From NCBI RefSeq assembly GCF_016586165.1, contig NZ_BCPR01000022.1, positions 1 to 64,000 on the forward strand: DNA of 64,000 nt, written 5' to 3'. Source of the stretch: Dyella sp. EPa41. GTDB lineage: Bacteria > Pseudomonadota > Gammaproteobacteria > Xanthomonadales > Rhodanobacteraceae. Shown here in pieces: positions 44,478 through 62,899 of this stretch; position 1 is the stretch's first letter, and every line of letters begins with the position of its first letter. Position numbers and translations under genes: made by a program. Below the pieces are notes generated by a model. That model made no database searches, was not told the origin of the DNA, and saw only the letters and a program-made list of their open reading frames with translations.

Positions 44478-44665
44478 GGGCTTTAACCTCGTTGGTGTTG
44501 CCTGTCGAACCTCAACTGCTCCGTTGGTGAACCAGAAACGCGTGCCGATCGGCCGTGCGGTTCGCGCGCCGTCGTGATGCCATCCATCGACCTCCCCGGT
44601 CATGGCTTCGCACGCCACGGCCGTTTGCTCGGTGCTGCTGCGCGAGGCCCCCGCCCCGCGTACCG

Positions 44666-46990
44666 CTATTTCGAAAACACGACTCGCGCCAACGCCCACT
44701 GGCCATCGCGCGGGTCGCCGGTGGCGACGATGCACACGTTGCGGACGCCGGCCCCCACCGGCGAGGCAAGCTTGGCATCGAGCCGAACAGGGCCCTTTGC
44801 CTGCGCCGAGCTCTCCATCGGCAAGCGGGCAAGCAGCGGCCCCGTGCAGTTGTCCGCATGAATCTCGAACTCGCCGGTGGCGCCGGCCGCATGGCGCACC
44901 ACGGCATCCTTCGCCTCGTCGCCGAAGCGCCAGGCGATGCGTTCCGCAGTGATGGCGACGTGCGTGACGCCCGCCAATGGCGCCTTCGGCCACAGCCAGC
45001 ACGCATTGCCGATGTCCACCGCATAGACCGGCCTTGGGCCCTGTGTCGGCCTGGCGCCATCCAGGCGTGAAGGTGGCTGCCGGGAGCACGTTGCGAGCGC
45101 GCTGCTGTCGCGGCTCAGCAACGTGGTTTCATCCAGGACCTGGGTGCGTGGCGCGGCCAGCTCGAAACCGTCCGGTGCAAAGGTGGCGGCCCGCAAGGTG
45201 ATGCCGCCTGCCAGCGCGAGAGGGCGTGCATAGGAGGCGGACTGCCGGGTGGGCTCCGAGCCGTCGGTCGTGTACCGAATCGTTCCGAAGCCCGTCTGGG
45301 TGGACAGCTCGACACGGAAGGCGCCATCGATGGCGGCCACATGGAAGACCGGCGCGTATGCACTGTCGGCATAGTCGATGCCCAGCGCGCGATAGCGCGC
45401 CAGTTCGGCCGGCATGCGCTGCAGGAAGCCGCTCCAGTCGCGGGCCTCCTCAGGCGACCAGCCAAGCTCCGACAACGCCGCGATACGCGGGAAAACCGCG
45501 TGCTGATCATGCGCGAAGGTGAGCATCTGCTCGGTCCACAGGCCGCCCTGCACGCCGATGACGTGCCTGGCGTCGGTCGTGCTCGCACCGCCGGGAATCA
45601 CCGCCGTGTCATAGGCCTGCCGCAAGGTCGCTGCGGGAGGCGGCCCCGCCCACTCATCGGGCAGGTCGGACTGGACATGATCGAAATACAACGACTCCTG
45701 CGGCGTCATGATCACGTCGTGGCCCTGCTTGATCGCCGCGAGCGCCACGCGCTCGTTGTGATCGCCATGCCACGACATCACCACCTGTGGCGTCGGAAGC
45801 CTTGCGCCGGCCGCAAGTTCGTCATCCCAGCCCACCGGGATGCGACCGTGCTCCAGCAGATGCGCGGCCACCTGGTTGGTGAACCAGACCTGCAGCTGGT
45901 CCATGTTGGCCAGGCCCAGCCTGTGCATCTGGGCACGCACCCCGGGAGATGCGTTCCATTGCTGCTTGTCGGCTTCGTCACCGCCGATGGAGATGTATCG
46001 CGAGGGAAACAGCCGCATCATTTCGTCGAGCACGTCATCGACGAACTGCAAGGACTTCTCATCCGGCGTGAGCAGCCAGGGGCTGATGCCCCAGTCCGTC
46101 CACACCGAGGGGCGCTCGCCGGTAACGCCCAGCCGCGGATAGGCGGCGACAGCTGCCTGCGAATGTCCGGGAAGATCGAATTCCGGCACGACATCCACGT
46201 AGCGCTCGGCGGCGTAGCGCACGATCTCGCGCGCATCGGCCTCCGTGTAGAAGCCGCAATAGGGTGCATCCGGCGAGCCGGACAGCTCGCTGTCGAGACC
46301 GACCGCTTTTCGGCAGGCGCCGATGTTGGTCAGCCCGGGATATTGGGGAATGGCGAGCCGCCAGCCCTGGTCCTCCGTCAGGTGCCAGAGCAGCACGTTC
46401 AATTTGTTGAGCGACATCCAGTCGATCAGTTTCTTGATGTCGGCCACGCTCTGGAAGTGGCGCCCCGAATCGAGCAGCAAGGCACGCCACGCAAAACGCG
46501 GGTGGTCGTCGATGGCACCGTAGGCGACCGTCACGGGTGAGCCGTGCGTCCATCCGGGGGGCGTCAGCAATTGCCACAGGGTGACGCTGCCGTAGAACGC
46601 GCCGCGCGGCGTGCGCGAGGTGACCCGGATGCCGCCTTCGTCGATCGTCATGCGATAGCCGGACTCATCCGCGATGGCGGCGCGAGGATTCACGTCGAAC
46701 GTGATCGCCGCATGCGTCACATCGGTCGTCGCCAGGCGCAGGCGCAACCCCTGGGTGTCGGCCACGCGTTGCACCAGCCGCTCGGCAATCGATCGTGCTT
46801 CTCCGGCACCGGCGCCTTGCACCGAAACCACGGCGCCATCCGCGATCCGGATCGAGCCTGATGCCGCGGGGCGTGCCTCGGCCGGTTGTGGCAGCAACGA
46901 CCACGCAGGTGCGGCGGGCGATGCCGCGGCCGCGCCATGGATCGCCAGCCACAGGATGGCCGCGCTTGAGAGGAGGGCGATGCGACTCAT
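44666..46990 (-). CDS. GH20 beta-N-acetylhexosaminidase, secreted
   Basis: A 774-residue family 20 glycoside hydrolase that releases terminal beta-GlcNAc/GalNAc by substrate-assisted catalysis. A signal peptide (1-23, ending HGAAAA) precedes the small N-terminal GH20b domain. The TIM barrel follows: LLDSGRHFQSVADIKKLIDWMSLNKLNVLLWHLTEDQGW, VPEFDLPGHSQAA, and the catalytic pair in GGDEADKQQW (Asp338-Glu339). C-terminal residues (about 560 on) form a chitobiase-like sandwich (RYTTDGSEPT) and a further carbohydrate-binding-like domain. AGGAGG precedes the ATG, which overlaps the glucokinase stop in ATGA, indicating translational coupling. Confidence 0.93.
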   Translation of the reverse strand: MSRIALLSSAAILWLAIHGAAAASPAAPAWSLLPQPAEARPAASGSIRIADGAVVSVQGAGAGEARSIAERLVQRVADTQGLRLRLATTDVTHAAITFDVNPRAAIADESGYRMTIDEGGIRVTSRTPRGAFYGSVTLWQLLTPPGWTHGSPVTVAYGAIDDHPRFAWRALLLDSGRHFQSVADIKKLIDWMSLNKLNVLLWHLTEDQGWRLAIPQYPGLTNIGACRKAVGLDSELSGSPDAPYCGFYTEADAREIVRYAAERYVDVVPEFDLPGHSQAAVAAYPRLGVTGERPSVWTDWGISPWLLTPDEKSLQFVDDVLDEMMRLFPSRYISIGGDEADKQQWNASPGVRAQMHRLGLANMDQLQVWFTNQVAAHLLEHGRIPVGWDDELAAGARLPTPQVVMSWHGDHNERVALAAIKQGHDVIMTPQESLYFDHVQSDLPDEWAGPPPAATLRQAYDTAVIPGGASTTDARHVIGVQGGLWTEQMLTFAHDQHAVFPRIAALSELGWSPEEARDWSGFLQRMPAELARYRALGIDYADSAYAPVFHVAAIDGAFRVELSTQTGFGTIRYTTDGSEPTRQSASYARPLALAGGITLRAATFAPDGFELAAPRTQVLDETTLLSRDSSALATCSRQPPSRLDGARPTQGPRPVYAVDIGNACWLWPKAPLAGVTHVAITAERIAWRFGDEAKDAVVRHAAGATGEFEIHADNCTGPLLARLPMESSAQAKGPVRLDAKLASPVGAGVRNVCIVATGDPRDGQWALARVVFSK

Positions 46991-48024
46991 GCGCTCGTTC
47001 CTCCTTCGGCGACATGCCGCGGCGATCCGGGCATGCCATGCCTGAGGTACCACCGTGCCGCGCCCTGGACGCCGTGCTGGCCGTGCTCTGTCACCCATAC
47101 CGGCATTTGCGACAGCAGCGTGCGTGCGCTGCGCCCGTGCAGGAATCGCTCCGCGAAGGCGCTGTGCTTGAGCAGGTCGAACAAGGCGGACAGAAAGCCC
47201 CCGGCGAGATACACGCCGCCGGTGGACATGAAGGTCATGGCGAGGTTGCCGGCAAAGCTTCCCAGCGACGCGCAGAACAACTGCACGGCTTCTTCCGCCT
47301 GCGCATCGTTGCGTGCGAGAGCTGCCGCGGTCACGGCCTCGGGCGTGGCCAGCTTCGGCGCTTCACCTTGCAGCGCGCACAGGGTCGCGTAAATCGTCAG
47401 CAGGCCAGGGCCAGACACGATGTGCTCAAACGGCACATAGCCGCCATCCGGCGCCAGGTGAGCGAGCACCTCGCGTTCGCGGGTCGAATGCGGTGCGAAA
47501 TCCATCTGCCCGGCTTCCGTCGCCAATACGAAGCCGCCGCTCGGGGAAGGGATGTGTACTGCCGCACCGAGCCCCGTGCCCGGGCCGACCACCAGGATCG
47601 GGCCACTGGGGCGGGTGTCTGGTCCGCACAGATGGCGTCCGTCATTGGCGAGCGCACCGTCGAGCGCGTAGGCCAGCGCTTCGAAGTCATTGAGTACTGC
47701 CACCTCGTCGAGGCCCAGGGCCTGGCGCAGCTGCGTCAGGTGAATGGGCCAGGGGAGGTTGTCGTTGACCACTTCGTCGCCCACGACCTGGCCCGCGCAG
47801 GCCAGCACGCAGTGCTTGATCGGAAGGTGCGCATGGATATCCAGGAAGGCCTGCAGCAGCGCCGACAGCATCGTGAATTCAGCGCAGGGGTAGACGCGAT
47901 AGGCCAGCGTTTCGAAGCCCCGGGCATCGTGGGGCGCGGCGCGCATCAGCGCGACGCGGCCATGCGTGCCGCCGATATCGGCCGCCAGAAATGGCGCCGC
48001 TGGTATCCCCGCCAGTCGATCCAT
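46987..48024 (-). CDS. glk: Glucokinase (Glk family)
   Basis: A glucokinase of about 345 residues that phosphorylates glucose, or possibly another hexose released by this operon, with ATP. The phosphate-binding motif FLAADIGGTHGRVALM is at residues 10-26. The family segment VAVLNDFEALAYALDG contains the catalytic aspartate, and VVGPGTGLGAAVHIPS and EAGQMDFAPHS follow. It is the Glk family rather than ROK, as no CxCGxxGC zinc motif is present. ATG 48024 is given; an in-frame GTG at 48030 is equally possible. It is the first gene of the glycan operon and overlaps the GH20 start by four bases. A strong palindrome lies about 50 bp upstream. Confidence 0.9.
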   Translation of the reverse strand: MDRLAGIPAAPFLAADIGGTHGRVALMRAAPHDARGFETLAYRVYPCAEFTMLSALLQAFLDIHAHLPIKHCVLACAGQVVGDEVVNDNLPWPIHLTQLRQALGLDEVAVLNDFEALAYALDGALANDGRHLCGPDTRPSGPILVVGPGTGLGAAVHIPSPSGGFVLATEAGQMDFAPHSTREREVLAHLAPDGGYVPFEHIVSGPGLLTIYATLCALQGEAPKLATPEAVTAAALARNDAQAEEAVQLFCASLGSFAGNLAMTFMSTGGVYLAGGFLSALFDLLKHSAFAERFLHGRSARTLLSQMPVWVTEHGQHGVQGAARWYLRHGMPGSPRHVAEGGTSA

Positions 48025-48076
48025 TGCCACGTCCCGAGCGCCCCCGCAGTGGAACTGGCATCAGGGTGTAACCGAA

Positions 48077-50937: not shown

Positions 50938-52545
50938 TCAATCGATCAGCAACCCGGCATCCCGAAGGCGCTGGCGCAAGCCGTCGAGCTTGTCGCCATA
51001 GCGGGCGCTTCGCGCTGTATCCCGGCGCAGCGGCTGACGGACTTGCGCGGCACTGGGCGCGCTCATCACGGTGCGCGACGTCTTGTGGAAGGCAAGGCAG
51101 GCCGCATCGAACGGGAGGCCGCAGAAATCCAGCAGGTTCCTGATGACGGGCTCCGGCTCGGCCACCAGCGACTCGTATGGAAGATCGAGCACGCGGCCGG
51201 GATATCGCTCCAGCCAGAAACGGGTAAGGCGCGAGAAGTCGACGCAGTAGTCGGCCATCTCGTCGAGATCGCAGGTGAAGCCGGTCTGCTCCGTGAAGCA
51301 CTGGCGGTAACACGCAAGGCAGGTTTCGACCGGGTCGCGGCGAACGATCACCACGCGCGCCGCCGGCAGCATCGCCAACGCGGCACCCACCAGGTACCAG
51401 GTCACCAGGCTCTTGTCGGTGAAGCGCGGCTTGGCCTTGCGCCACTGCGCGGTGCGCGCGAGGTACTCCTTGCCGAGTCGATGCCAGTCTTCGGGTGTGG
51501 CGTCGCACGCCCATAGCGGAAAGGCCGAATGGCGCCGACGTGTTTCGTCGTCGATCACCTGCGACATGTCCTTGATCTCGTTGGCGCCTTCGACCTCCGG
51601 GTGCGACGCCAGGATCTGCTCGACCAGTGTCGAGCCCGAACGTGGAATGCTGACGATGAAGGTGACTTCACGGCCGAGTGCCGGATCCAGTGGCGGCGGC
51701 ATGTCGCTGGCGAAGATGCGCAGGATCGCGTCCACGCGCCGGCGTTCCCCGGCGGCATCCCACTTGACCCGTTTGCGGCGCGAGGCGTTGGCCCAGCGGA
51801 ACGTTTCGAAGGCCTCGCCGTAATCGCCCAGGTCTTCCTGCGCCTTGGCGAGCGTGAAACCGAGCAACTCGCGGTGGCGGGGCGGCAAGCCTTCGCGTGC
51901 CAGGACGCGCTGGAGGGCCGCCGCGTCCGCGCTGTCAAAGCGGACGGTATTGAGATTCGACAGGCCAAACCATCCCTCGGCATGGGCTGGATCCAGGCGA
52001 ATGACCTCCCTGAAACCCGCCACGGCAGCGTCGATCTCGCCCAGGCTCGCCTGCGCCTTGGACAGCGACAAGCGGGCGGGCACATGCGAGGCATCAAGCG
52101 CGAGTGCCCGTTGCAGGGCCGAAACAGCCTCGCCGGTGTGCGTCGCCCTCGACAGTGCTTCGCCGAGATTGAACCAGGCTGGCGCGGATCGCGGTTGCAA
52201 CTCGCAGGCACGACGAAGATGCTCCAGCGCCTGCCCGACGTTGCCGCGTTCGAACAGCGCGATGCCGAGGCAGACATGCAGGTCGGAGTCGTCGGGCCAT
52301 ATCGAAAGCACGCGCTGGAAGCAGTCGATGGCCTGGGCGTGATTGCCGCGGCGCTGGGCCACCATGCCCAGCATGCGGATGGCGGTGGGCTCCTCCGGCA
52401 CCAGGGCGAGCACGCCGATCAAGGAACGTTCGGCGGCGTCGAGGGCATGGCGCGCCCATTCTTCGCGCGCTCGCGCAAGCAAGCGTTCGGCCGCGCCCGA
52501 AAGCGGTTGTCGAGGCACGCCCTGCGCTGGCCGAGGTTCTGTCAT
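50938..52545 (-). CDS. TPR-repeat sulfotransferase
   Basis: A 535-residue fusion of tetratricopeptide repeats and a sulfotransferase domain, an arrangement common in Xanthomonadales. Residues about 25-270 carry repeated 34-residue TPR units (AIDCFQRVLSIWPDDSDLHVCLG, ALEHLRRACELQPRSAPAWFNLGEAL, AVAGFREVIRLDPAHAEGWFGL). The sulfotransferase domain (about 285-500) opens with the PAPS loop FIVSIPRSGSTLVEQILASHPEVEGANE. It contains RVVIVRRDPVETCLACYRQCF, the 3'-phosphate region. There is no signal peptide, so it is cytoplasmic. Acceptor unknown: protein tyrosine, carbohydrate and amine substrates are all known for the fold. A clear terminator separates it from the TonB receptor upstream, so it is transcribed alone. 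Confidence 0.88.
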   Translation of the reverse strand: MTEPRPAQGVPRQPLSGAAERLLARAREEWARHALDAAERSLIGVLALVPEEPTAIRMLGMVAQRRGNHAQAIDCFQRVLSIWPDDSDLHVCLGIALFERGNVGQALEHLRRACELQPRSAPAWFNLGEALSRATHTGEAVSALQRALALDASHVPARLSLSKAQASLGEIDAAVAGFREVIRLDPAHAEGWFGLSNLNTVRFDSADAAALQRVLAREGLPPRHRELLGFTLAKAQEDLGDYGEAFETFRWANASRRKRVKWDAAGERRRVDAILRIFASDMPPPLDPALGREVTFIVSIPRSGSTLVEQILASHPEVEGANEIKDMSQVIDDETRRRHSAFPLWACDATPEDWHRLGKEYLARTAQWRKAKPRFTDKSLVTWYLVGAALAMLPAARVVIVRRDPVETCLACYRQCFTEQTGFTCDLDEMADYCVDFSRLTRFWLERYPGRVLDLPYESLVAEPEPVIRNLLDFCGLPFDAACLAFHKTSRTVMSAPSAAQVRQPLRRDTARSARYGDKLDGLRQRLRDAGLLID

Positions 52546-52649: not shown

Positions 52650-55600
52650 TCAAAAATCGTAGGCCACCGAGAACCTGACGTAGCGCGGTGAGAGCGTGTC
52701 CTGCACCCGGCCGAAGTCGGGATTGGGGCTGGAGGTCGTGCCGTAGAAGTCGTTATAGAAAACAGGCGTCTGCTGGTCGAGCAGGTTGAAGACGGCGAGG
52801 TTGAAATCGAGCTTGTGATCCGCCCAGCCCGGTTTGTAATCCACGTTGAGACCGACCTGGTGCGTCCATGGCAGGCGACCCAGCGAACCCGGCGGGACAG
52901 GTTCGCCGCCACACCAGTAATAGGTATGGGAGCCGTGCAGCGCCAGCTGGTTGGGTCCATAGCCGCCACGGCACAGCACCGGCGTGCCGGATGCGATGTA
53001 GAGGTTGGCGCCCAGTGTCCAGTCCGGGGCGACCTGATAGGCGCCGAACAGCTTTATCTGGTGCCTGCGGTCATTGGGCAGCACGCCGGAGGAATATTCC
53101 ATGCGCTCGGGGAAATCCCAGCCCGTCGTGAGCGACTCATAGGAGCCACCCTGCTGGGAGTACGTGCTCACCGGGCCTTCGTCGTTGCCCCAGGTGCGCG
53201 AGAACACGTAGTCGAGCTTGGCGAACCACTTGCCGTCCCACGCGTGCTCCAGCGACAGATCCAGCGAGTAGTAGCGGCGCGTCGGCCCCTTCGGGAAGCC
53301 CTGGTCCTTGGAGGACAACGTCACCGGCACGAGCGCGCCGCCCGGCGAGCGCATCCACAGGTTGCTGGTCTCGCCCGGATTGATCAGCACCAGGCTTTGC
53401 GCCCACTGGCTGCAGGTGTCCGGCGTCATGAACGCATAGCCCTGCGCGCGGCCGGCCGCGCACTCGATCTGGATATCGTCGAAGTCGTCGATGATGCGGT
53501 TCATGCGCTGGTAGGTGCCGGTCGCGCCGAACACCCACGACGTCCCCAGCATCTCGAACTGCTGCTGCAGGCCCAGCACGTAGTTGTCCGAGTACTCGGC
53601 CTTGATGTTGCGCGATGCGGAAACGCGCGGGTCCTTGGCCTGGCCGTACTCGCTGTCGATCGACACGCCCGTCGACGGATTCTGCGGCAGGGGCGTGAAC
53701 CCGATCGGCGCGCCCGTGGCCGGATCGATGCCGGTGTAGGTGCCATACACGCCGGCATTGGTCACCGGTGCGGCGATCGACAGCGCCACCTGTTCCGGCA
53801 GCGCCAGGTAGTAGCGGCCCGCATTGCCGAACACCTTCAGCGAGGCGTCGCCATGCACGTCCCAGCTGAAGCCCAGGCGTGGCGCCCACTGCGGCTTGGT
53901 CAGGCGGATATACGGCACGCCCGAGGCGTCGTAGTTGGTGAACTGGTCGTTGCGCACGCCCAGGTTCAACAGCAGGTTCGGCGTGACCTGCCAGTTGTCC
54001 ATGACGTACTGCGCGCGCTGCGTGACGCGCACGGAAGCCACGCTGATGTCGGTGTGCTGTTGTACGTAGTAGCAGCGAACCGTGCCGGTGCTGTCAGGGT
54101 GGCACTGGGTCGATGGCGCGACATAGGGCGGCACGCTGGGGTCCACGCCGAACACCGGCGAGCCGGGGTCGCTCTGCCCATAGATCCACTGGTATCCCGG
54201 ACCGGGGTTCACCGAGCCGTCGTTCAAGTCCGTGGAATTGATGTTGTCGATACCGACCTGGAAGTCGTGGTCGCCGAGCTTGTAGTCGAGGTCCAGGCGG
54301 TAGTTCGTCACCGACTCCTTGTGATTGGGGTCGGTGATGGTCGAGTTGATCTGCGAGTTGGAGATGCCGCCGGGAGGCACGAACGCCGGATCCTGCACCG
54401 AGCTGCTGGCGATATGCGGCAGCAGGGGGTCGAAGCCTTCATAACCCGGCTGGCTCGTGTAGTACGAGCCGTGCATCTTGCCGACCATCGCATTCAGCGT
54501 CAGGTTGTCGGTGATGTAGGAGGTGTAGTTGGCCACCCATACCTTGAACGTGGTCCGCTTGATCTGGTCGAGGCTGTTGAAGTCACCCGGCTTGAGGGTG
54601 TCGTAGTCGAAGTCGTAGATGGTGCCGGCGGTCTTGTGCGAGTTCTGCACATAGCTCGCGCTCAGGACGTTGCTGTCGTTGATGTTCCAGTTGAACTTGG
54701 TATAGAACTTAGGATCGTGCACCTTCCACGTCTCGGTCGTGGCGGTGCTGCTGAACTCCGACGTGGTGCGGTAATGGGAGTCGTCCTGCTCCATGCCGAT
54801 GTAGAAGAACAGCTTGTCCTTGATGAGCGGGCCGCTCACGTAGGCGTCGTAGATGGTCTCGCTGCTGCTGTTGTTGTTGCGATAGACGGCCAGGTCGCCA
54901 GGACGGTTGCCGGCGCTGGTCACCAGCTTGTTGGCGTAGTAGTAGTTGTCCGGGTCGGTGCGCAGGCTGCCCGGCTGCCACAGGGCGCGCGCGCCGAAAT
55001 GCCAGTCGTTGTCGCCGCTCTTGCCGATCTGGTTGATCACGCCGCCGATGGAGCGGCCGTAGCGGGCGTCGTAGCCGCTGATGAAGGTCTGCTGCTGTTC
55101 GATGGCGCCATAGGGCAGGGAGATGCCGCCCTGGTTGTTGAGCAGCTCGGTGGTGTTCATGCCATCGAGGTAGTAGGCGTTCTCCGCCGTCGATGCGCCG
55201 CCGAACACCAGGTTCGGCGTGCCCAGCGGACCGGTGCCGATCTCGGGCGAACCCAGGTTGACGCCAGGCGCGAGCAGGGCGATGTCCTCGGCGGTGCGCT
55301 GCAAGGGCAATTGCTGCAATTGCTTCGCGGTGATCGTCGTCACCTGGTTGGTGGTGCTTACGTCGATGGGCGGCAGCGACGTGCCGGTGACGTTGATCGT
55401 GCTCAGCGTCCGGGCTCCCGTGGCAGTCGGGGCGGCGAAATCCACCGCGACCGCGCCTGCCGCCACCGGGCTCACTCCGCTGCGCGAATCCACGACCTTG
55501 CCATCCTGCAGCAGCGACACGGTGTAGGTGCCGACCGGCAAGGTGACCGAGTACTTGCCGGATGCCCCGACATCGATGGTTCGATTGAAGCCTGAGCCGC

Positions 55601-55778
55601 CGGTGATCTGGACAGATTCGCCTGCCACCGCAGGCACCGTGCCGTAGATCGTGCCGTTGGTCGCCTGCGCCCACGCGTTGCCCGTGAGGCCCAGGACGAT
55701 CGATCCGATGGCAAGCGGTAGCGCCTTGCACTTGAGGACATGCTGGGGATGCAGCGCGCGCAAAGATTTGCCCTTCAT
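52650..55778 (-). CDS. Oar-like TonB-dependent receptor with carboxypeptidase-regulatory N-domain
   Basis: A 1042-residue outer-membrane receptor of the OmpA-related Oar type. A signal peptide (1-38, ending GNAWAQ) is followed by a carboxypeptidase-regulatory-like sandwich (about 40-125: IYGTVPAVAGESVQITGGSGF, GKYSVTLPVGTYTVSLL). The plug shows VSTTNQVTTITAKQLQQLPLQRTAEDIALLAPGVNLG and YLDGMNTTELLNNQGG. The barrel ends YVRFSVAYDF. Oar-like receptors are linked to peptide/protein uptake or secretion rather than iron. ATG 55778 is chosen for its signal peptide, with GGAG eleven bases upstream. Its promoter carries a module nearly identical to that of dgcN, predicting control by the LysR regulator at 58826. 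A leader of about 275 nt is implied. Confidence 0.88.
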   Translation of the reverse strand: MKGKSLRALHPQHVLKCKALPLAIGSIVLGLTGNAWAQATNGTIYGTVPAVAGESVQITGGSGFNRTIDVGASGKYSVTLPVGTYTVSLLQDGKVVDSRSGVSPVAAGAVAVDFAAPTATGARTLSTINVTGTSLPPIDVSTTNQVTTITAKQLQQLPLQRTAEDIALLAPGVNLGSPEIGTGPLGTPNLVFGGASTAENAYYLDGMNTTELLNNQGGISLPYGAIEQQQTFISGYDARYGRSIGGVINQIGKSGDNDWHFGARALWQPGSLRTDPDNYYYANKLVTSAGNRPGDLAVYRNNNSSSETIYDAYVSGPLIKDKLFFYIGMEQDDSHYRTTSEFSSTATTETWKVHDPKFYTKFNWNINDSNVLSASYVQNSHKTAGTIYDFDYDTLKPGDFNSLDQIKRTTFKVWVANYTSYITDNLTLNAMVGKMHGSYYTSQPGYEGFDPLLPHIASSSVQDPAFVPPGGISNSQINSTITDPNHKESVTNYRLDLDYKLGDHDFQVGIDNINSTDLNDGSVNPGPGYQWIYGQSDPGSPVFGVDPSVPPYVAPSTQCHPDSTGTVRCYYVQQHTDISVASVRVTQRAQYVMDNWQVTPNLLLNLGVRNDQFTNYDASGVPYIRLTKPQWAPRLGFSWDVHGDASLKVFGNAGRYYLALPEQVALSIAAPVTNAGVYGTYTGIDPATGAPIGFTPLPQNPSTGVSIDSEYGQAKDPRVSASRNIKAEYSDNYVLGLQQQFEMLGTSWVFGATGTYQRMNRIIDDFDDIQIECAAGRAQGYAFMTPDTCSQWAQSLVLINPGETSNLWMRSPGGALVPVTLSSKDQGFPKGPTRRYYSLDLSLEHAWDGKWFAKLDYVFSRTWGNDEGPVSTYSQQGGSYESLTTGWDFPERMEYSSGVLPNDRRHQIKLFGAYQVAPDWTLGANLYIASGTPVLCRGGYGPNQLALHGSHTYYWCGGEPVPPGSLGRLPWTHQVGLNVDYKPGWADHKLDFNLAVFNLLDQQTPVFYNDFYGTTSSPNPDFGRVQDTLSPRYVRFSVAYDF

Positions 55779-56280
55779 GACGATGTGCACTCCACTCTGT
55801 TGAAACGCCCGTACTGCGCCTTCAGGCCGAGGAGCGGTGCGTTCGGTCCTTGGCAGGAACGGAACGCGGATGGCTTCGCGGCAACCACAGGTCATGCGAG
55901 CCGTGACGGCTCGACAGACGAAACCTGGACCTGACCGGGCAACAGGCGACGACAGCGCGCTTCGACATCGCGATGCGGATCGGCCTCATGGGACAGATCC
56001 TTCGTGAGTTGGCATGCGCTGCGAGCGGTTCTCCCCAACCAGCCCACAAGTGCTTGCGCGAGCGTAGTCTCGGGCTGGTACGAGCCGCCAATGAAAAAAC
56101 ATCGGCTCACCATAACTGGGGGTTATGGGGACGTGGTTTGCGAGGCCCGCGCGCAATCGGCAGGCCGATCATCGATGGCGCAGCGCCAGCGATTCGATGC
56201 CGCGACACCGAAAAACGGCTCGATCCACCGGGCGTCGACGCGCGCGCCTGCGCCACGCAGGCATCACCGTCTACCTCAGA
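55779..56280. other. 502-bp region: leader and promoter of the Oar-like receptor
   Basis: No gene is seen. The promoter module is at 56061-56128. The implied leader contains a hairpin CGAGCC-GTGAC-GGCTCG at 55897-55913. The stretch 56129-56280 up to the gltS stop is unremarkable. Confidence 0.5.
56061..56128 (-). promoter_or_regulatory. LysR-type promoter module, copy A (Oar-like receptor)
   Basis: Three blocks written on the plus strand: AGCGTAGTC (56061-56069; minus-strand -10 TACGCT), CCAATGAAAA (56088-56097; minus-strand TTGG as a weak -35) and CATAACTGGGGGTTATGG (56111-56128). The last block, with the preceding C, is a 7-bp inverted repeat CCATAAC/GTTATGG and contains a T-N11-A LysR box. 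The same blocks recur at 58646-58713 with identical 18- and 13-base spacers. Confidence 0.75.
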
Positions 56281-57486
56281 TCACTTCCACACGTTGACGA
56301 ACACCGTGATGATCACGGCATTGGTGAAGTCGATGAGGAACGCGCCCACCACCGGCGCGACGAGAAACGCGCGTGGCGCGGGGCCGAAGCGTTCCGTGAG
56401 CGAACTCATGCAGGCCATCGCATTGGCGGTAGTGCCGAGCATGAAGCCGGTGAAGCCGCTCGCCATGACGGCGGCGTCGTAGTCGCGCCCCATCAGCTGC
56501 AGCAGCGGCCAACAGCACAAGGCCACCACCAGCACGGTCTGCAGCGCCAGGTTGACCAGCAGCGGCGCCGCCATGCCCGACAGGTCCCACAGGTGCAGAT
56601 CCATCAGCGCCATCACGAGAAACAACGAGAGGCTGATGCTGCCGATCATCTCCATGCTGCACGCCGACAGGCCAAACCAGCCGAAGTGATCGTCGATGTT
56701 GCGGATCACCGCGCCCGCCAGCATGGCGCCGATGTACGCGGGCAGGGTGAGGCCGAGCATCCCCAGGCCCGCGCTGATCCATGCGCCGATACCCATGGCG
56801 ATCAGCATGAACACGAGGCTCTTGAGTCCCGCGTAGGCAGGGTCCGCGATCCGGCGTTTCGTCGATGGCGCGACGGGCGGTGCCGTCGCGTCGGTGTCCG
56901 CGCGCGTGGCGCCGGCAGGGTACAGTCCAAGCCGCTCGATCAGCAGGGCCGCCAGCGGCGCACCCAGGATGGAGCCGCACACGATGCCGGCCATGGCATT
57001 GGCCAGGGCCACGCTCTTGGCGCCCTGCACGCCGGCACTCGCGAACAGCGGCGCGAACGCAAGTCCCGTGGCCGGCCCACCCGCCAACGTGGCCGAGCCG
57101 GTCACCACGCCAAACAGCGGTGGCAGTCCAAACGCCTTGGCCATACCCACGCCCAGCAGGTTCTGGATCACGGCCAACCCGCTTGCCAATCCAAGGAACA
57201 GCAGGATCTGCCGGCCGCCGATCTTCAGCAGCGTGGCGCTGGCGTTGAAGCCGATGCCGGTGAAGAAGGCGATCATCAACGGCTGCTCGAGCCCGGTGTC
57301 GAAATGGATGGGCGTGACGTTCCAGTGCCGGCACGCCAGCATCAGCAGCGCCACCAGCAGGCCGCCAATGACGGGCGCGGGAATGCTGAAGCGCGCCAGC
57401 ACCGGCACGCGCCGCCGGATGGCGTAGCCGACAAGCAGCAACAGGCCGCCGCAGGCCAATGTCTGTATCGAGTCGAGTGTCAGCAC
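56281..57486 (-). CDS. gltS: Sodium/glutamate symporter (GltS family)
   Basis: A 401-residue inner-membrane carrier, exactly the length of E. coli GltS, which imports D- and L-glutamate with sodium. The N-terminus reads LACGGLLLLVGYAIRRRVPVLARFSIPAPVIGGLL. The two inverted halves carry the paired glycine-rich re-entrant loops: VTGSATLAGGPATGLAFAPLF in the first, and ASGFTGFMLGTTANAMACMSSLTERFGPAP in the second. A polar linker (about 195-215) separates the halves. Translation starts at GTG 57486 with a poor ribosome-binding site, 41 bp after dgcN in the same orientation, so it is probably the second gene of a dgcN-gltS transcript. Uptake of D-glutamate is the contextual inference. Confidence 0.92.
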   Translation of the reverse strand: MLTLDSIQTLACGGLLLLVGYAIRRRVPVLARFSIPAPVIGGLLVALLMLACRHWNVTPIHFDTGLEQPLMIAFFTGIGFNASATLLKIGGRQILLFLGLASGLAVIQNLLGVGMAKAFGLPPLFGVVTGSATLAGGPATGLAFAPLFASAGVQGAKSVALANAMAGIVCGSILGAPLAALLIERLGLYPAGATRADTDATAPPVAPSTKRRIADPAYAGLKSLVFMLIAMGIGAWISAGLGMLGLTLPAYIGAMLAGAVIRNIDDHFGWFGLSACSMEMIGSISLSLFLVMALMDLHLWDLSGMAAPLLVNLALQTVLVVALCCWPLLQLMGRDYDAAVMASGFTGFMLGTTANAMACMSSLTERFGPAPRAFLVAPVVGAFLIDFTNAVIITVFVNVWK

Positions 57487-57527
57487 GCGCGAGTACCCAG
57501 GTCGACAGCGAGGGTGAGTCTATATGC

Positions 57528-58565
57528 TCATTTCGCGAAGCTGGCGAGGAGGTGGTCGGTCATGGCCTCCACGCCCATGGATACCGGATCCTGGCAGGGC
57601 AGGCCGAACAAGGCGCCGACGCGCTCGCAGAGTGCGTGCGCCTCGTCCACGGGCAGGCTCGACGTATTGAGCGCGATGCCCACCGGCTTCACTGCCGGGT
57701 TGGTCAGTCGCGCAGCGGCGAGGTTGGCTTCCATGCAGGCCATGAGATCGGGGATCGGATAACCGGGCAGTCCGCGCATATGGCGCCGCGTGGGCTCATG
57801 GCACAGCACCAGCGCATCGGGCTGAGAGCCGTGCAGCAAGCCGAGCGATACGCCGGCGAAGGAAGGATGGAACAGCGAGCCCTGGCCCTCGATGAGATCC
57901 CATCCGTCGTCGTTCCGCGCCGGCGATATGGCTTCGGCCGCGCCGGAGATGAAATCCGCCACCACCGCGTCGATGGGGATGCCCGAGCCCGCGACGAGAA
58001 TGCCTGTCTGGCCGGTCGCCCGAAAATCCGCGCGATGGCCGCGCCGGCGCAGCGAGCGCTCCAGCGCCAACGCCGTATACATCTTGCCCACCGAACAATC
58101 CGTGCCCACCGTCAGCAGTCGCCGTCCCGCACGCGGCTTGCCGGTGCCCACCGGTATGCCTGGCCTGGGCGCGCGCGCATCGAACAGCGTGCGGCCGTGG
58201 CTGCGTGCCGCCGCCACGATATCGGGGTCGTCATTGAGCCGATGATGCAGGCCCGACACCACGTGAAGACCAGCCTCCAGCGCGGCAATGGCGTCGGCGA
58301 TCATCTCCGGGCCCATCACGCCGCCTGCGTTCGCCACGCCGATCACCATCGTGCGTGCGCCATCCGCCAGGCTTTGCGCGAGGCCGACATCCCGCAGCCC
58401 CAGCGTCACCGCGCAGTCCTCCCGGCGATACTGGCCCAGGCACCATTGCGGCCGCCAATACGCCAGGCCACGCGCTGTCTTGATCGACAGGTCGTCGGCG
58501 GCACTACCCAGGTACAACACGTACGGCGGTCCCCACGGGGCGCCTTCTTCGCCTTGCGCGGACAT
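57528..58565 (-). CDS. dgcN: DUF1611 protein, probable D-glutamate N-acetyltransferase DgcN
   Basis: A 345-residue DUF1611 family protein. The family includes DgcN, which acetylates D-glutamate in a D-glutamate catabolic pathway completed by the racemase DgcA. An N-terminal Rossmann-like domain (about 1-130) has VLYLGSAADDLSIKTARGLAYWRP and GVANAGGVMGPEMI. The P-loop domain carries VGTDCSVGKMYTALAL, a Walker A motif. GIPIDAVVADFISGAAE and EGQGSLFHPSFAGVSLGLLHG follow, all standard for the family. AAAGGAG lies six bases before the ATG. Neighbouring gltS and a divergent LysR gene match the known dgc context, but no dgcA (enolase-superfamily) gene is in the window. Family certain; exact reaction inferred. 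Confidence 0.85.
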   Translation of the reverse strand: MSAQGEEGAPWGPPYVLYLGSAADDLSIKTARGLAYWRPQWCLGQYRREDCAVTLGLRDVGLAQSLADGARTMVIGVANAGGVMGPEMIADAIAALEAGLHVVSGLHHRLNDDPDIVAAARSHGRTLFDARAPRPGIPVGTGKPRAGRRLLTVGTDCSVGKMYTALALERSLRRRGHRADFRATGQTGILVAGSGIPIDAVVADFISGAAEAISPARNDDGWDLIEGQGSLFHPSFAGVSLGLLHGSQPDALVLCHEPTRRHMRGLPGYPIPDLMACMEANLAAARLTNPAVKPVGIALNTSSLPVDEAHALCERVGALFGLPCQDPVSMGVEAMTDHLLASFAK

Positions 58566-58645
58566 CGGCAGCTCCTTTCCTGCGGGCAGGTCGTTCCATG
58601 CGTGGCGGAAACCCCGGTGCGTGAGGCGTCCTTGCCGCCGGGCCG

Positions 58646-58713
58646 AGCATAGTCAGCGCTACAGGCGTGCAGCCAATGAAAAGATGGGCACGAGGCATAA
58701 CCGGTGGTTGTGG
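58646..58713 (-). promoter_or_regulatory. LysR-type promoter module, copy B (dgcN)
   Basis: Blocks on the plus strand: AGCATAGTC (58646-58654; minus-strand -10 TATGCT), CCAATGAAAA (58673-58682) and CATAACCGGTGGTTGTGG (58696-58713), a near-palindrome. It is 81 bp upstream of dgcN and 113 bp from the divergent LysR start, the classical position of a LysR site. Same length and spacing as copy A at 56061-56128. Confidence 0.78.
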
Positions 58714-58825: not shown

Positions 58826-59725
58826 ATGCGTCTGCGTTACATCGAGCTGTTCCATGCTGTCCTGAGCACGGGCAGCCTCACTGGCGCAGCGAGCCTGTTG
58901 AACGTGTCGCAGCCCGCGGCCAGCAAGGCATTGCAGCAGGCCGAGAGCCACCTGGGCTTTCCGCTTTTCAGCCGCGTGCGCGGCCGCTTGCAGCCCACGC
59001 CGCAGGCGTTGCTGATGCGCCACCAGATCGACAAGCTGATGCGCGACCTGTACGACCTGCGACGCCTGGCGGTGAACATCACCCGGCCGGAAAGCCATCC
59101 GTTGAGGGTGACCTGCACGCCGGCGCTGGCCCAGGTGCTGGTACCCGATGCCATCGCGCGGCTGGGCGAGGTCTATCCGGAAACCATCGTCGAGCTGTTC
59201 ACCCAGCACTCGGCGGTCATGTGCGAATCGCTGATGCTGCGCGAAGCCGACATCGGCCTCACCCTGCAGGACATCAATCACCATGGGCTGGTGCAGGAGC
59301 CGTTGTGCCGCGGCAACATCAAGGTGATCGCGCCGCCGGGCTGGTGGCCCGAGCGTGAACTCGACCGGCCGTTGCCGATCAAGGCGCTGGCCGGCCAGCC
59401 GATGATCGGCATCACCGTCCAGGATGCCTTGGGCGCCATGCTGCAGAACCATCTCACCAAGGTCGAGCCGGCGCCGGTGACCAAGGTCTGGGTGCAGACC
59501 TACCAGCTGGCCTGCTCGCTGGTCGCGCGGGGAGGCGGGCTGGCCCTGGTCGATCCCTTCACCGCGCAATGCAGCAGGGAGCCCGTGCAGAAGCGCGCCC
59601 TGAAGCTGGAGATGGACGTCGTCCTGTACGCCGTCTACCGTCCCGACAGTCCGCTCGACAGCGTGCAGACGCGCTTCCTCGACTACATGAGGCAAATGGC
59701 GAAGAAGATATTGACGAACTCTTGA
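58826..59725 (+). CDS. dgcR: LysR-family regulator of the D-glutamate module
   Basis: A 299-residue LysR-type transcriptional regulator. The winged helix-turn-helix spans about 1-60 (YIELFHAVLSTGSLTGAASLLNVSQPAASKALQQAESHLGFPLFSR). The effector domain follows a linker helix (LRVTCTPALAQVLVPDAIARL; then QDALGAMLQNHLTK, SLVARGGGLALVDPF). GGGGATCGGGCT precedes the ATG. It is divergent from dgcN, with the two-block operator between them, as expected for a LysR regulator that activates its neighbour and represses itself. DgcR is the name given to the LysR regulator of known dgc clusters; use here rests on context. The predicted co-inducer is D-glutamate or N-acetyl-glutamate. Confidence 0.85.
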   Translation: MRLRYIELFHAVLSTGSLTGAASLLNVSQPAASKALQQAESHLGFPLFSRVRGRLQPTPQALLMRHQIDKLMRDLYDLRRLAVNITRPESHPLRVTCTPALAQVLVPDAIARLGEVYPETIVELFTQHSAVMCESLMLREADIGLTLQDINHHGLVQEPLCRGNIKVIAPPGWWPERELDRPLPIKALAGQPMIGITVQDALGAMLQNHLTKVEPAPVTKVWVQTYQLACSLVARGGGLALVDPFTAQCSREPVQKRALKLEMDVVLYAVYRPDSPLDSVQTRFLDYMRQMAKKILTNS

Positions 59726-59950
59726 GTCGCGCTTGCCGCGTATTTGCGATATCGATGGCCCGGCGGTCGAATCGCGGCGAATGAAGCGGGCGCCACTTCA
59801 CGGTTTGATCTCCATCGCGGCGCGAAATTTGCTTCCAACTGGGAAGCGCGGCATGGGCGATCATGGCGGAACCGTCATGGCGCGATGCCGGCGAACCTTG
59901 CTCCGCGACCCTTTCGCTGCTCATGTAACGCAGGACCGGCTGCGCGAACC

Positions 59951-62899
59951 ATGGTGACAATGAAGGCTCCTCCCAAGATTCCATCGCCGCTGGCCATTCT
60001 CCTGTTCGGCGTCCTGACGGCCGTGCTGCTCCTCGCCGCCATCATCAACGGCCTGCGATCCGACCTTCACTCGCAGCTCGAGGAAAGCGGCCGCCGCGCC
60101 GACGAGGTGGCGCGCAACGTGGCGCAGGCCGTTCGCCTGCCTTTGCGCACCGGCGCCAACGCCATGACCTTCATCGCCGAGGAATCGGCTCGCCTCCAGC
60201 GCACGGCACCGGAGCAGGGCGATGTGCTCATCAAGGGGCTGGTCACGGAAATTCTCGGGCGCCAGCCGCAGATGGTGGACATCACCTTCCTCGATGTCGC
60301 CACGCCCGGCGACGGTGCCGCGCCGTCGATGCCGCCGCCCAGGTGGACGTTGTGCGCGGCACGCGCGTCCTCGCCGTCGGGCGCGCCATGCTTTGGCCCC
60401 ATCACCAGGCTGCCCGGCGGCCTGGCGCTGTCCGTGGCGGCGCCCGTGGATGGCCGCCGCTGGGTGACTGGAGACATCAGCCTGTCCGCGCTGGAACGTG
60501 CCGTTGAAAATGTTCCCCATGGAAGCGGCACGTCCTTCAAGGTGGTCGATGAGCAGGGCAGGCCGATCGCGCAGGGCGGCAACCTGGACGCGACGCCGGC
60601 ATCGGCCGATATGGCGGAGACACCGTCCTGGACCGAAAAGCTGTTCAAGGTCCACGCGCCTTCACCCCTCGTGGTGTCGTTGCGGGTCGAGCCTTATCCC
60701 TTCAAGGTCATTGCCCATACCAGCCGCCAGGCAGCACTTGCCGCCTGGCACAGGCATGTCGCGGTGGCCGCCGCCTTCTACGCGCTCTATCTATTGGTCT
60801 TCGCGGGCTTGCTGGGCGTGATGTACCGCGCCACGAGGATGCAGCGCTACTACATCCGTCATCTGGTAGGCAAAACGCAGGAGCTGCACGCCGCGCAACG
60901 CGTGGGCCGGACCGCCATCTGGAGCTTCCACGACTCGCGTTTCCATTGCACCGACGAGAGTGGCGAGCTGTTCGGCCTTTCCGGCGGGCGATGCACGGCC
61001 AGTGCGAGGGAATTCCTGGCGCTCGTGCTCCCCAGGGATCGACCGGCACTCGCCAGGCAGGCCAGGGCAGCCTGGAAAACCCATGGCGCCTTGCATGCCG
61101 AATTCCAGATACGGAAGTCCGGCGGCGCCGTGCGCCACCTGTCCGCGCGCGGGCAGGTCGTGGTCGACGATGACGGGACCAAAAAGATGACCGGAACGGT
61201 CGTCGACGTCACGGAGCAGTGGGAGGCGCGCCGAAGGCACGCGGAAAGCGAGCACCGCTTCCGCACGTTGTTCGACCACAATCCGCTCGCATTCTGGGTG
61301 TTCGACGCTGCCACCCTGCGGTTTCTCGAGGTCAATGCCGAAGCCGTGAGGGCCTACGGTTACACGCGCGATGAATTCCTCCGCATGACCATCCACGACA
61401 TCCGGGATCCGGATGACCGTCGTGAACTCGCCGAGCATCTTGGGATGCCCAGCGACGAAAGGACGAATCCCCAGCTGTGGGTGCACCGCACCAAGGACGG
61501 CCGGGCCATCGATGTGCGCATCCACGCGGCCGACATCGAGTTCAATGGCGTGCCGGCGCGACTGATCATGGCGGAGGACGTCCGCGCGGAGCTCGCCGGC
61601 GAGCGGGAAGTGATGTACCACGCCTCGCATGACTTGGCGACAGGCTTACCCAATCAGCATGCGCTACTGAGTCGAATGGACACGCTCGTGGCCAATGGGC
61701 GCGAGTTCGGCATCGCCTATATCCAATTGCTGGGCATGGATGCCATTGCGGACACCTTTGGCATCCAGGTGGCGACGGGCACCTTGCAGGCCATGGCGGC
61801 ACGCCTGAGCGAAGGTATCGGCCCCGACGAATTCCTCGCGGCGATCAACCAGGAGGCGTTCGCATGGATGGCTTCCGGGGAACTCATGACCGAGGTCCGT
61901 CTGCGCTGGATTGTCCAGTGCGTGGCAGAGCCCCTGTTCTACGAGGACACCCAGCACCAGATAGACATCGTGGTGGGCACCGCCAGGCATCCGGACGATG
62001 CCGTGCGTTCGGACGTGCTGCTCGGATGCGCCGCATTGGCGGCGCATGCGCATATCCGCAGCGACCGCCCCATTCATGGCTTCGAACCCTCGCTCGCACG
62101 CGACTCCCGGGAGCGGCTGCACTTCGCCGCGAATTTGCGGCGGGCCGTCAATCGGCACGAATTCGAACTGCACTTCCAGCCCATCACGGACTACCCGGGC
62201 ATGCGGCTCATCGGGCTGGAGGCGCTTATCCGATGGCCGCAACCCGATGGCACGTTCATCCCGCCGTCGACGTTCATTCCGTTGTGCGAGGAATCGGGGC
62301 TTATCGTTCCGCTGGGGCAGTGGGTTCTCAACCAGGTGGCCAAGGCGGCCACGCGACTTGCGGATGCGGGCTTCAGGCACCTGCCGATCGGCATCAACGT
62401 CTCGCCGGCGGAACTGCGCAACGGTGACCTGGTGGCGAACCTTCGCGCGGCCCGGACCCATTACGCCCTGGAAGGCGGCGCCATCTATGTGGAGCTGACG
62501 GAAAGCTGCCTGATCGAACACCGGGACAAGGCCATCGACGTGATGAGGAAGTTGCGCGACGAAGGCATCGCGATTGCGCTGGACGATTTCGGCACGGGCT
62601 TTTCCAGCCTTTCCTATCTGCGCGACCTGCCGATCGACATGCTGAAGATCGACCAGGGATTCATACGCGACGTCGACCGCGACGCCCGGTCGGCCACGAT
62701 CTGCGAAGCCATCATCTCGCTTGGCAAGAGCCTGGGGATTCGCGTGATGGCCGAAGGCATCGAGCGCTCATCGCAATACGAATGGCTCCATCGCCACGGC
62801 TGCGACGGTGCCCAGGGGTTCTATCTGGGCAGGCCCGAGCCGCTGGCCGAGCTTCTGAAGCGTTGGCCGCCGGCATCATTGCCGAGTGCCATGCGGTAA
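59951..62899 (+). CDS. Membrane PAS-(degenerate GGDEF)-EAL cyclic-di-GMP phosphodiesterase
   Basis: A 982-residue inner-membrane signalling protein. Transmembrane helices near 12-33 and 270-295 enclose a periplasmic sensor domain of about 240 residues with no family I recognise. Two PAS-like domains follow (about 315-425, and 430-550 with FRTLFDHNPLAFWVFD). A diguanylate-cyclase-like domain (about 555-710) keeps DLATGLPNQHALL, but the GGDEF signature is replaced by NQEAF (633-637), so it should not make c-di-GMP. The EAL domain looks intact: EALIRW (Glu757), NVSPAEL, ELTES, DDFGTGFSSL, KIDQGFI, AEGIE and QGFYLG. The predicted net activity is c-di-GMP hydrolysis. ATG 59951 is chosen; the longer frame upstream is not protein-like. 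It ends 32 bp from convergent ohr. Confidence 0.88.
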   Translation: MVTMKAPPKIPSPLAILLFGVLTAVLLLAAIINGLRSDLHSQLEESGRRADEVARNVAQAVRLPLRTGANAMTFIAEESARLQRTAPEQGDVLIKGLVTEILGRQPQMVDITFLDVATPGDGAAPSMPPPRWTLCAARASSPSGAPCFGPITRLPGGLALSVAAPVDGRRWVTGDISLSALERAVENVPHGSGTSFKVVDEQGRPIAQGGNLDATPASADMAETPSWTEKLFKVHAPSPLVVSLRVEPYPFKVIAHTSRQAALAAWHRHVAVAAAFYALYLLVFAGLLGVMYRATRMQRYYIRHLVGKTQELHAAQRVGRTAIWSFHDSRFHCTDESGELFGLSGGRCTASAREFLALVLPRDRPALARQARAAWKTHGALHAEFQIRKSGGAVRHLSARGQVVVDDDGTKKMTGTVVDVTEQWEARRRHAESEHRFRTLFDHNPLAFWVFDAATLRFLEVNAEAVRAYGYTRDEFLRMTIHDIRDPDDRRELAEHLGMPSDERTNPQLWVHRTKDGRAIDVRIHAADIEFNGVPARLIMAEDVRAELAGEREVMYHASHDLATGLPNQHALLSRMDTLVANGREFGIAYIQLLGMDAIADTFGIQVATGTLQAMAARLSEGIGPDEFLAAINQEAFAWMASGELMTEVRLRWIVQCVAEPLFYEDTQHQIDIVVGTARHPDDAVRSDVLLGCAALAAHAHIRSDRPIHGFEPSLARDSRERLHFAANLRRAVNRHEFELHFQPITDYPGMRLIGLEALIRWPQPDGTFIPPSTFIPLCEESGLIVPLGQWVLNQVAKAATRLADAGFRHLPIGINVSPAELRNGDLVANLRAARTHYALEGGAIYVELTESCLIEHRDKAIDVMRKLRDEGIAIALDDFGTGFSSLSYLRDLPIDMLKIDQGFIRDVDRDARSATICEAIISLGKSLGIRVMAEGIERSSQYEWLHRHGCDGAQGFYLGRPEPLAELLKRWPPASLPSAMR

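Follow-up and report, generated by a model that had tools for sequence, protein, structure and literature searches.

A predicted DguR-type D-glutamate regulon that includes a TonB-dependent receptor operon in Dyella sp. EPa41 and its relatives

A shared promoter module and the LysR-type gene beside it

Why should a gene of D-glutamate (D-Glu) catabolism and an outer-membrane receptor gene carry the same promoter element? The question is raised by a 64,000-nt stretch of DNA from Dyella sp. EPa41 (hereafter the window; its source genome measures 4.92 Mb), in which two 68-bp modules built of three short blocks lie 2.6 kb apart. One of them, copy B, stands between dgcN, the gene for a D-glutamate N-acetyltransferase on the minus strand, and a divergent LysR-type regulator gene on the plus strand. 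The other, copy A, precedes an operon headed by the gene for an Oar-like TonB-dependent receptor (Table 1). The explanation that we consider best, and quite probable as a whole, is a D-Glu regulon of the DguR type that took in TonB-dependent uptake of D-Glu-containing peptides.

Comparison of copies A and B reproduced all coordinates and identities of the initial annotation: the blocks match at 8/9, 10/10 and 15/18 positions (33/37), while the spacers match at 6/18 and 2/13 (8/31). We searched for the module with a joint pattern, CCAATGAAAA-N13-CATAAC-N5-GTTRTG, allowing up to two mismatches, and with a reversed-pattern control. In the window genome this pattern found copies A and B only and the control found nothing. 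The dyad alone (CATAACN5GTTRTG) also returned only copies A and B at zero mismatches, but it was rejected as a search pattern because at up to two mismatches its yield, 71 matches on one strand and 73 on the other, stayed below that of the control (149 and 145). An additional dyad with one mismatch, at position 56771 of contig C5, was rejected since the fixed block is absent at the required distance; among the remaining one-mismatch dyads of the window genome, judged by the joint pattern and not individually, none passed.

To describe the module we gathered 140 distinct copies with up to three substitutions, of which 121 are less than 80% identical to one another over 115 nt. The sets used for the logo and for gene mapping followed slightly different rules; both drew on loci of the window's family and on 80 of the 89 stretches from the collection scan described below (L206-L214 excluded), and identical sequences were merged, as the genomes of the two sources overlap. 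With TATGCT set at -12 to -7, a numbering that comes from sequence alone, the logo of the 121 modules displays three elements: CCAYAAC-N5-GTTATGC, a dyad with its centre at -65; TTTTCATTGG, a rigid block at -43 to -34; and the -10 element itself (T 97, A 100, T 78, G 79, C 94, T 98 of 121). Conservation of the dyad and the fixed block is partly imposed, since both served to find the sites, but the -10 element and the bases flanking the dyad did not. A weight matrix from these modules scored the two window sites at 64.9 and 62.4 bits (both belong to the training set) and the runner-up in the window at -21.6. A dyad at about -65 combined with a site at -35 is the layout of LysR-type activator promoters. 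With its dyad near -65 and a second site over the -35 region, the module is, as far as sequence goes, of this layout, in agreement with the LysR-like box, weak -35 and -10 TAYGCT that had been proposed for the minus strand. We also observed a second operator subtype, CATAGC-N5-GTTATG, at 20 of 77 family sites, 14 of them before TonB receptor genes and three before deacylase operons (e.g. L095, L097, L108, L110); the dgcN sites of the family read (C/T)ATAAC-N5-GTTGTR, unlike this subtype.

We then considered 117 genomes from the window's family, the Rhodanobacteraceae. The joint pattern, at the same tolerance, was present in 22 genomes of seven genera, at 2 to 8 copies each and 77 listed places altogether, and the reversed control in none of the 117. 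A LysR orthologue (E<=1e-60; up to 20 candidates per genome) was found in exactly these 22 genomes and in 0 of the 95 others, so that the rule linking module and LysR gene had no exception in either direction. These orthologues, the window genome's own aside, are 65-94% identical to the window protein, one copy (G061) being broken by a contig end. The co-occurrence gives a Fisher value of about 3e-24, which ignores kinship, and the independent events are therefore far fewer than the counts. The targets follow the same distribution. The receptor family at large is common (88/117 genomes at E<=1e-100), and with up to six candidates scored per genome an orthologue of at least 68% identity occurred in 21 of the 22 LysR-bearing genomes and, among the matches listed, in none of the 95 others, where the best listed match reached 51%. 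In all 21 the module stands in front of the receptor gene. The exception, G074, has its modules at a GGT-dgcN-dgcA-gltS cluster (GGT, gamma-glutamyltransferase), at another GGT gene and at a different type of TonB receptor. dgcN lies inside a module-led gene run in 22/22 genomes; its product exceeds the NF041892 cut-off in 21 genomes, all among the 22, and in the 22nd (G096) the gene is split over two contigs. Five genomes whose only DgcN is sub-cut-off (G016, G037, G076, G101 and G102) lack both the module and a LysR orthologue. The initial annotation had proposed looking for the motif before dgcN and Oar-like receptor genes in relatives, and had held that its absence from relatives keeping these genes would speak against a functional link; the motif is where it was expected. 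Its view that the blocks are selected rather than recently duplicated likewise gains from this conservation and from the divergence of the spacers. By this distribution, the predicted co-regulation of dgcN-gltS and the receptor operon is well supported.

The regulator, its kin and the genes behind the module

He et al. reportedly described in 2014 the dguRABC locus for utilisation of D-Glu and D-Gln in Pseudomonas aeruginosa, in which DguR is said to activate dguA. A portion of PMC10926688 has DguR regulating the dguA promoter in D-Glu catabolism, a passage of PMC7962211 cites the dguRABC work for growth on D-glutamate, and in the accessible parts of PMC6131576, PMC6965332 and PMC6034422 that work is merely listed. 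An exact-pattern scan of a genome collection of 84,980 species yielded 89 stretches (80 mapped first, nine later), which beyond the Rhodanobacteraceae include Luteimonas, Lysobacter, a Steroidobacteraceae metagenome-assembled genome (MAG), Nevskiaceae, an Aquitalea MAG and eight Pseudomonas loci. In all eight, presumably from the mendocina group, the module is flanked by a LysR gene on one side and a DadA-like gene on the other. The Pseudomonas LysR proteins are 47-48% identical to that of the window in whole copies, and 51 and 60% over short pieces at locus ends. The one Pseudomonas locus examined by Pfam (L148) has the gene order DAO-RidA-NMT1_3, which we take to be the dguABC layout. From this shared operator and gene order, the LysR protein of the window would be of the DguR type. 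The operator was compared with these eight Pseudomonas genomic sites, kinship to P. aeruginosa DguR was judged through stand-in Pseudomonas proteins (L204 and L148), and in the window dgcN-gltS occupies the place that dguABC has beside the regulator. This match to a dguRABC-like locus, like the identity of the gene between receptor and dgcN as gltS, had gone unnamed in the initial annotation.

The best NCBIfam model for the LysR protein, PRK11013, scores 141.4 bits where its cut-off is 288; we take this model to represent E. coli LysR, the activator of lysA. E. coli LysR itself is 31% identical over 258 amino acids (105 bits; CynR 62 bits, OxyR 50 bits). In a tree of 19 sequences hand-chosen from 50 collected, the Pseudomonas, Nevskiaceae, Aquitalea and Rhodanobacteraceae proteins formed one group that excluded E. 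coli LysR, CynR and OxyR. The fork has a support of 85/97 and is drawn open, and the tree contains long branches. Solved structures provided no hint as to a ligand, because the LysR protein had two matches only (AdmX and one other) and a sequence search with the receptor found no solved relative at E<=0.001.

Genes behind the 140 modules were labelled by tblastn, with proteins of the window and of module-bearing loci as references; names are therefore transferred rather than scored genome by genome. Gene picking was heuristic, and the rule for gene runs (gaps of up to 700 and up to 350 nt) may merge neighbours and misses strongly overlapping genes. The nearest mapped downstream gene encoded DgcN at 34 modules, the Oar-type receptor at 32, other TonB receptors at 26, GGT at 16, a DadA-like protein at nine, an amidohydrolase at four and an N-acyl-D-amino-acid-deacylase-like protein at three. 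An AmpH/class-C-type hydrolase, a D-amino-acid transaminase, an amino-acid permease, a Na+/solute symporter, GH18, GH20 and GDSL proteins came nearest once each; three modules had no mapped downstream gene and six lay at a locus edge. The nine later-mapped stretches (L206-L214) agree with this picture. Counted by module-led runs in the 22 family genomes, the most frequent gene was dgcN (22), ahead of the receptor and sulfotransferase genes (21 each), GGT (12), gltS (11), a second TonB receptor type (8), dgcA (6), DadA, one transaminase type and amidohydrolase (5 each), deacylase (4) and a transaminase of a second reference type (3); for dgcA, present within the loci of 13 genomes, the figure is an undercount due to the run rule. 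Among representatives that we scored, GGT was identified as TIGR00066 and DadA as PRK00711, DgcA reached 435.7 bits with NF042940 (cut-off 400) and LysA 460.1 bits with TIGR01048, whereas the two best models for the D-amino-acid transaminase stayed below their cut-offs; DapF, Amidase_2 and the beta-lactamase-type hydrolase were identified by Pfam.

Several of these genes belong to longer operons. The receptor operon extends into an amidase, a beta-lactamase-type hydrolase, a D-amino-acid transaminase or a deacylase gene in several genomes, and in some relatives the module heads a deacylase gene together with dapF. Read by eye, the amidase N-terminus is a signal sequence with a lipobox. LysA of the module loci is a stand-alone protein; in nine genomes searched, a second match elsewhere covered the decarboxylase part of a frame of 880-1182 codons, which we read as a LysC-LysA fusion (five of the nine such matches are reported with an internal stop codon). 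The peptidoglycan-type partners of some relatives are DapF, LysA, the amidase, the transaminase, DadA, DgcA and GGT. Taken together, the module-led genes point to the stem peptide L-Ala-gamma-D-Glu-meso-DAP-D-Ala (DAP, diaminopimelate), although DapF, LysA, the amidase, the transaminase and DadA are each present in a minority of genomes.

Seven genomes from outside the family were searched whole at up to three mismatches. Hydrocarboniphaga effusa had 10 modules, Solimonas flava six, a Pseudomonas genome one and four others two each, with no control match in any of the seven; some weak Hydrocarboniphaga sites may be chance, and one falls inside a predicted open reading frame (ORF; L250). Among the genes preceded by a module in Hydrocarboniphaga are those for TonB receptors, one of which adjoins the LysR gene and has a CapA-like (PGA_cap) gene behind it. 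Modules there also stand before genes for DgcN-DgcA (65 and 55% identity), a deacylase, M81/MlrC-type peptidases, a TonB-ExbB pair and a MoxR-type ATPase, and next to a module, though not behind it, is a transaminase gene. In Solimonas they precede a TonB receptor gene adjoining a LysR gene and genes for DgcN (66%), a Na+/dicarboxylate-type symporter, one M81 peptidase and a MoxR-type ATPase, and in Lysobacter maris they stand before DgcN-DgcA-amidohydrolase-GltS and before a TonB receptor gene that a beta-lactamase-type hydrolase gene follows. LysR genes of the same group are found near modules in Pseudomonas, Nevskiaceae and Lysobacter. That the link between operator, D-glutamate genes and TonB uptake seems to recur with different receptors in different families is the best evidence for its function. 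A separate observation concerns the M81/MlrC-type genes of Hydrocarboniphaga effusa, three of which lie in a row (L247 14343-19910 and L248 133-1668), the first two each preceded by its own module, and are followed by a module before TonB-ExbB. MlrC-type enzymes act in the breakdown of microcystins, which contain D-Glu.

Proposed function and competing explanations

We propose that the two modules are operator-promoters of one LysR-type activator, the product of the gene divergent from dgcN, which would be of the DguR type and sense D-Glu or a close derivative. A tetramer of this protein would occupy both the dyad at -65 and the fixed block over -35 and recruit RNA polymerase to the weak -35/TATGCT promoter, switching on dgcN-gltS through copy B and the receptor-sulfotransferase operon through copy A. 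The receptor would import D-Glu-containing peptides, most likely peptidoglycan stem peptides, across the outer membrane. Cleavage of these peptides in the periplasm would follow, GltS would carry glutamate into the cell, and DgcN would N-acetylate D-Glu for racemisation. Because the gene between receptor and dgcN is gltS, encoding a Na+/glutamate symporter, the operon already has an inner-membrane route. The sequence itself shows the geometry and conservation of the module, its strict co-occurrence with the LysR gene, the positions and the gene families. On the strength of the genome comparison we regard it as very likely that the LysR protein binds and activates both modules. An inducer of the D-Glu type appears likely by analogy, the signal being supported by the Pseudomonas parallel, and guilt by association makes D-Glu-containing peptides the somewhat favoured cargo of the receptor. 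Whether peptidoglycan is the main source of these peptides seems evenly balanced.

A number of observations weigh against this explanation. The best dgcA match of the window genome scores 372.8 bits, short of the NF042940 cut-off of 400, and lies on another contig without a module. The known regulon there is a reduced one of four genes, with no further module at up to two mismatches. The strict T-N11-A rule for LysR sites holds in copy A and fails in copy B; among the 121 modules, the T is present at its position in 48 and the A in all 121. Some members occur in a minority of family genomes, namely LysA (3/22 module-led, 7/22 in fetched loci), DapF (2/22) and amidase (2/22 and 4/22), and the module-led genes for GDSL lipase, GH18, GH20 and SSF proteins, each in single genomes, are unexplained. 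The same applies to the module-led MoxR-type ATPase, which occurs in both Hydrocarboniphaga and Solimonas (L246 6461-7671; L252 5741-10720). Lastly, 369 genomes of the class yielded no further LysR at E<=1e-60 with up to six candidates scored per genome. The MoxR-type gene has no apparent D-Glu role in either genome; in Solimonas it is accompanied by DUF58 and vWA genes.

The strongest competitor keeps the regulon and changes the cargo: instead of peptidoglycan fragments, the receptor could import poly-gamma-glutamate or further D-Glu peptides such as those of cyanobacteria. GGT in the module-led run of 12/22 genomes fits this idea, as do the module-led PGA_cap gene of Hydrocarboniphaga, its row of three M81/MlrC-type genes with two modules, and the single such gene behind a module in Solimonas. 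Poly-glutamate alone would not predict DapF, stand-alone LysA, the N-acetylmuramoyl-L-alanine-amidase-type lipoprotein, the transaminase or DadA, each of them limited to a minority of genomes, and we judge such a cargo possible but unlikely. The neighbouring genes in Rhodanobacteraceae relatives favour peptidoglycan over poly-glutamate, and the CapA/PGA_cap protein and M81 peptidases of Hydrocarboniphaga may leave room for other D-Glu peptides. In Dyella the cargo could be narrower, since the peptidoglycan-type genes that are clear in some genera are absent from the window regulon.

It is improbable that the LysR protein senses diaminopimelate, as E. coli LysR does, with the D-Glu genes as passengers of a meso-DAP regulon. 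The best-scoring model, the closer match to E. coli LysR than to CynR or OxyR, and the presence of LysA and DapF in some regulons would suit such a sensor; the PRK11013 cut-off is missed, dgcN is module-led in 22/22 genomes and LysA in three, and the exact-module Pseudomonas loci carry a DadA-like gene. Control of the module by another regulator or a sigma factor, to which the unusual rigidity of the TTTTCATTGG block (partly imposed by the search pattern) might point, is very improbable given that module and LysR orthologue are common to the same 22 genomes, that LysR genes of one group lie near modules in three further taxa, and that the geometry is that of a LysR promoter. That promoter DNA was recently duplicated or inserted on the spot, with no regulation in common, might be suggested by the likeness of two 68-nt elements at a distance of 2.6 kb in the same genome. 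This idea can be dismissed for practical purposes, as the spacers differ while the blocks agree and its simple form is refuted by an arrangement kept in 22 genomes of seven genera and in other families.

The DguR-type regulon thus preferred can be set beside known systems. With dguR-dguABC of Pseudomonas it shares the exact module between LysR and DadA-like genes and D-Glu catabolism as its purpose. It differs in that the Rhodanobacteraceae have dgcN in the place of dguA, together with TonB receptors, the sulfotransferase gene and peptide-degrading enzymes, and 2 to 8 modules per genome instead of one in the Pseudomonas genome searched whole. Yu et al. are said to have described in 2023 the DgcN-DgcA pathway of marine bacteria. 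Here too DgcN of the window exceeds its cut-off and DgcA adjoins dgcN in several relatives, but the window dgcA is unlinked, and a receptor and gltS share the operator of dgcN. As in Oar-like TonB receptors, the window receptor has Plug and OMP_b-brl_4 (PF25183) domains and an N-terminal CarboxypepD_reg-like stretch, although the latter scores below the gathering threshold (PF13620, 20.5 versus 32.3 bits) and the receptor lacks a solved relative at the threshold given above. In the TonB-receptor carbohydrate utilisation loci of Xanthomonadales, a common operator serves a receptor, a symporter and periplasmic enzymes together with a single regulator. The present system would have the same composition, with D-amino-acid peptides as putative substrates and a LysR-type regulator as the differences. 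A part of PMC12363236 cites Yu et al. 2023 on DgcN-DgcA, and in what is accessible of the main text of PMC10845958 and PMC12363236 the word TonB does not occur. Our literature search, which combined D-glutamate, DgcN and DguR with TonB receptors, peptidoglycan and LysR, found no account of the regulon among the papers listed, most subscription papers being outside its reach. A D-glutamate regulon of the DguR type is already known; the form that bears TonB receptors would be a new variant.

This bacterial group has many TonB receptors whose cargo is unknown; for the present receptor type alone, the window genome holds 27 first-look candidates. Within the family the operator is found only in LysR-bearing genomes and is mostly clustered around dgcN, which would supply a substrate class for several orphan TonB receptors. 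The module gives a list of testable operons and a route to finding what such receptors import, and it suggests that D-Glu serves as a signal of bacterial cell-wall debris. A bolder proposal, which we hold tentatively and just short of an even chance, is that a DguR-type sensor acts in Rhodanobacteraceae and Nevskiaceae as the master switch of a whole system that takes peptidoglycan stem peptides of other bacteria from the outer membrane to the cytosol for use. Dedicated TonB receptors would belong to this system, as would the TonB-ExbB pair of Hydrocarboniphaga, and the operator would then mark D-Glu-peptide utilisation islands and name the cargo class of several orphan receptors.

Feature coordinates and neighbouring loci

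Table 1. Position, strand and supporting evidence of regulon features in the window.
Feature	Position	Strand	Basis
TPR and sulfotransferase gene, second in receptor operon	50938..52545	-	PF13469 132.2 bits; TPR models
Oar-like TonB-dependent outer-membrane receptor gene, 1042 amino acids from ATG 55778	52650..55778	-	PF25183 94.6 bits; Plug 33.5 bits; PF00593 38.6 bits
Module copy A, before receptor operon	56061..56128 (68 nt)	-	Sequence; modules precede receptor orthologues in 21/21 genomes
Copy A, -10 TACGCT	56061-56066	-	
Copy A, fixed block TTTTCATTGG	56088-56097	-	
Copy A, dyad CATAACN5GTTATG	56111-56127	-	
gltS, Na+/glutamate symporter gene, second in dgcN operon	56281..57486	-	TIGR00210 329.4 bits (cut-off 310.75)
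dgcN, D-glutamate N-acetyltransferase gene	57528..58565	-	NF041892 511.1 bits (curated cut-off 480)
Module copy B, before dgcN-gltS	58646..58713 (68 nt)	-	Sequence; module heads dgcN-containing run in 22/22 genomes
Copy B, -10 TATGCT	58646-58651	-	
Copy B, fixed block	58673-58682	-	
Copy B, dyad CACAAC-N5-GTTATG	58696-58712	-	
LysR-type regulator gene, divergent from dgcN	58826..59725	+	PF00126; PF03466

Copy A ends 283 nt before the likely receptor ATG, so that the receptor transcript would have a long leader of about 275 nt, compared with about 75 nt for dgcN. The TPR-sulfotransferase gene comes after the receptor gene in 21 of the 22 module-bearing genomes, namely those with the receptor, and is a steady companion with no evident role. 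Behind the LysR gene lies a PAS-GGDEF-EAL gene (59744-62899); among the family loci compared it was matched in the window genome only, and it is therefore probably outside the regulon.

Three further loci without a copy of the module, or with separate regulation, were observed. Contig C66 of the window genome (L220, 44-7096) carries a partial TonB receptor gene and genes for a serine hydrolase, a dipeptide-epimerase/DgcA-like protein, a POT-type peptide transporter and an RpiR-type regulator, all in a row. These genes were read by eye from ORFs, with matches for the DgcA-like and hydrolase genes only, and the locus looks like a second, separately regulated one for cell-wall dipeptides. On contig C11 (L219, 12237-16661) a gene for an Oar-like receptor (31% identity) is directly followed by one for the stand-alone LysA. 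The locus has no module, and an epimerase-like gene lies within a few kb of it. Within the window itself, positions 41259-48030 hold a TonB receptor gene, a GH20-like gene and, as read by eye, a glucokinase-like gene, all without a module, which likely form an amino-sugar glycan locus; the GH20-like protein is 34% identical to the GH20 that is module-led in G096.

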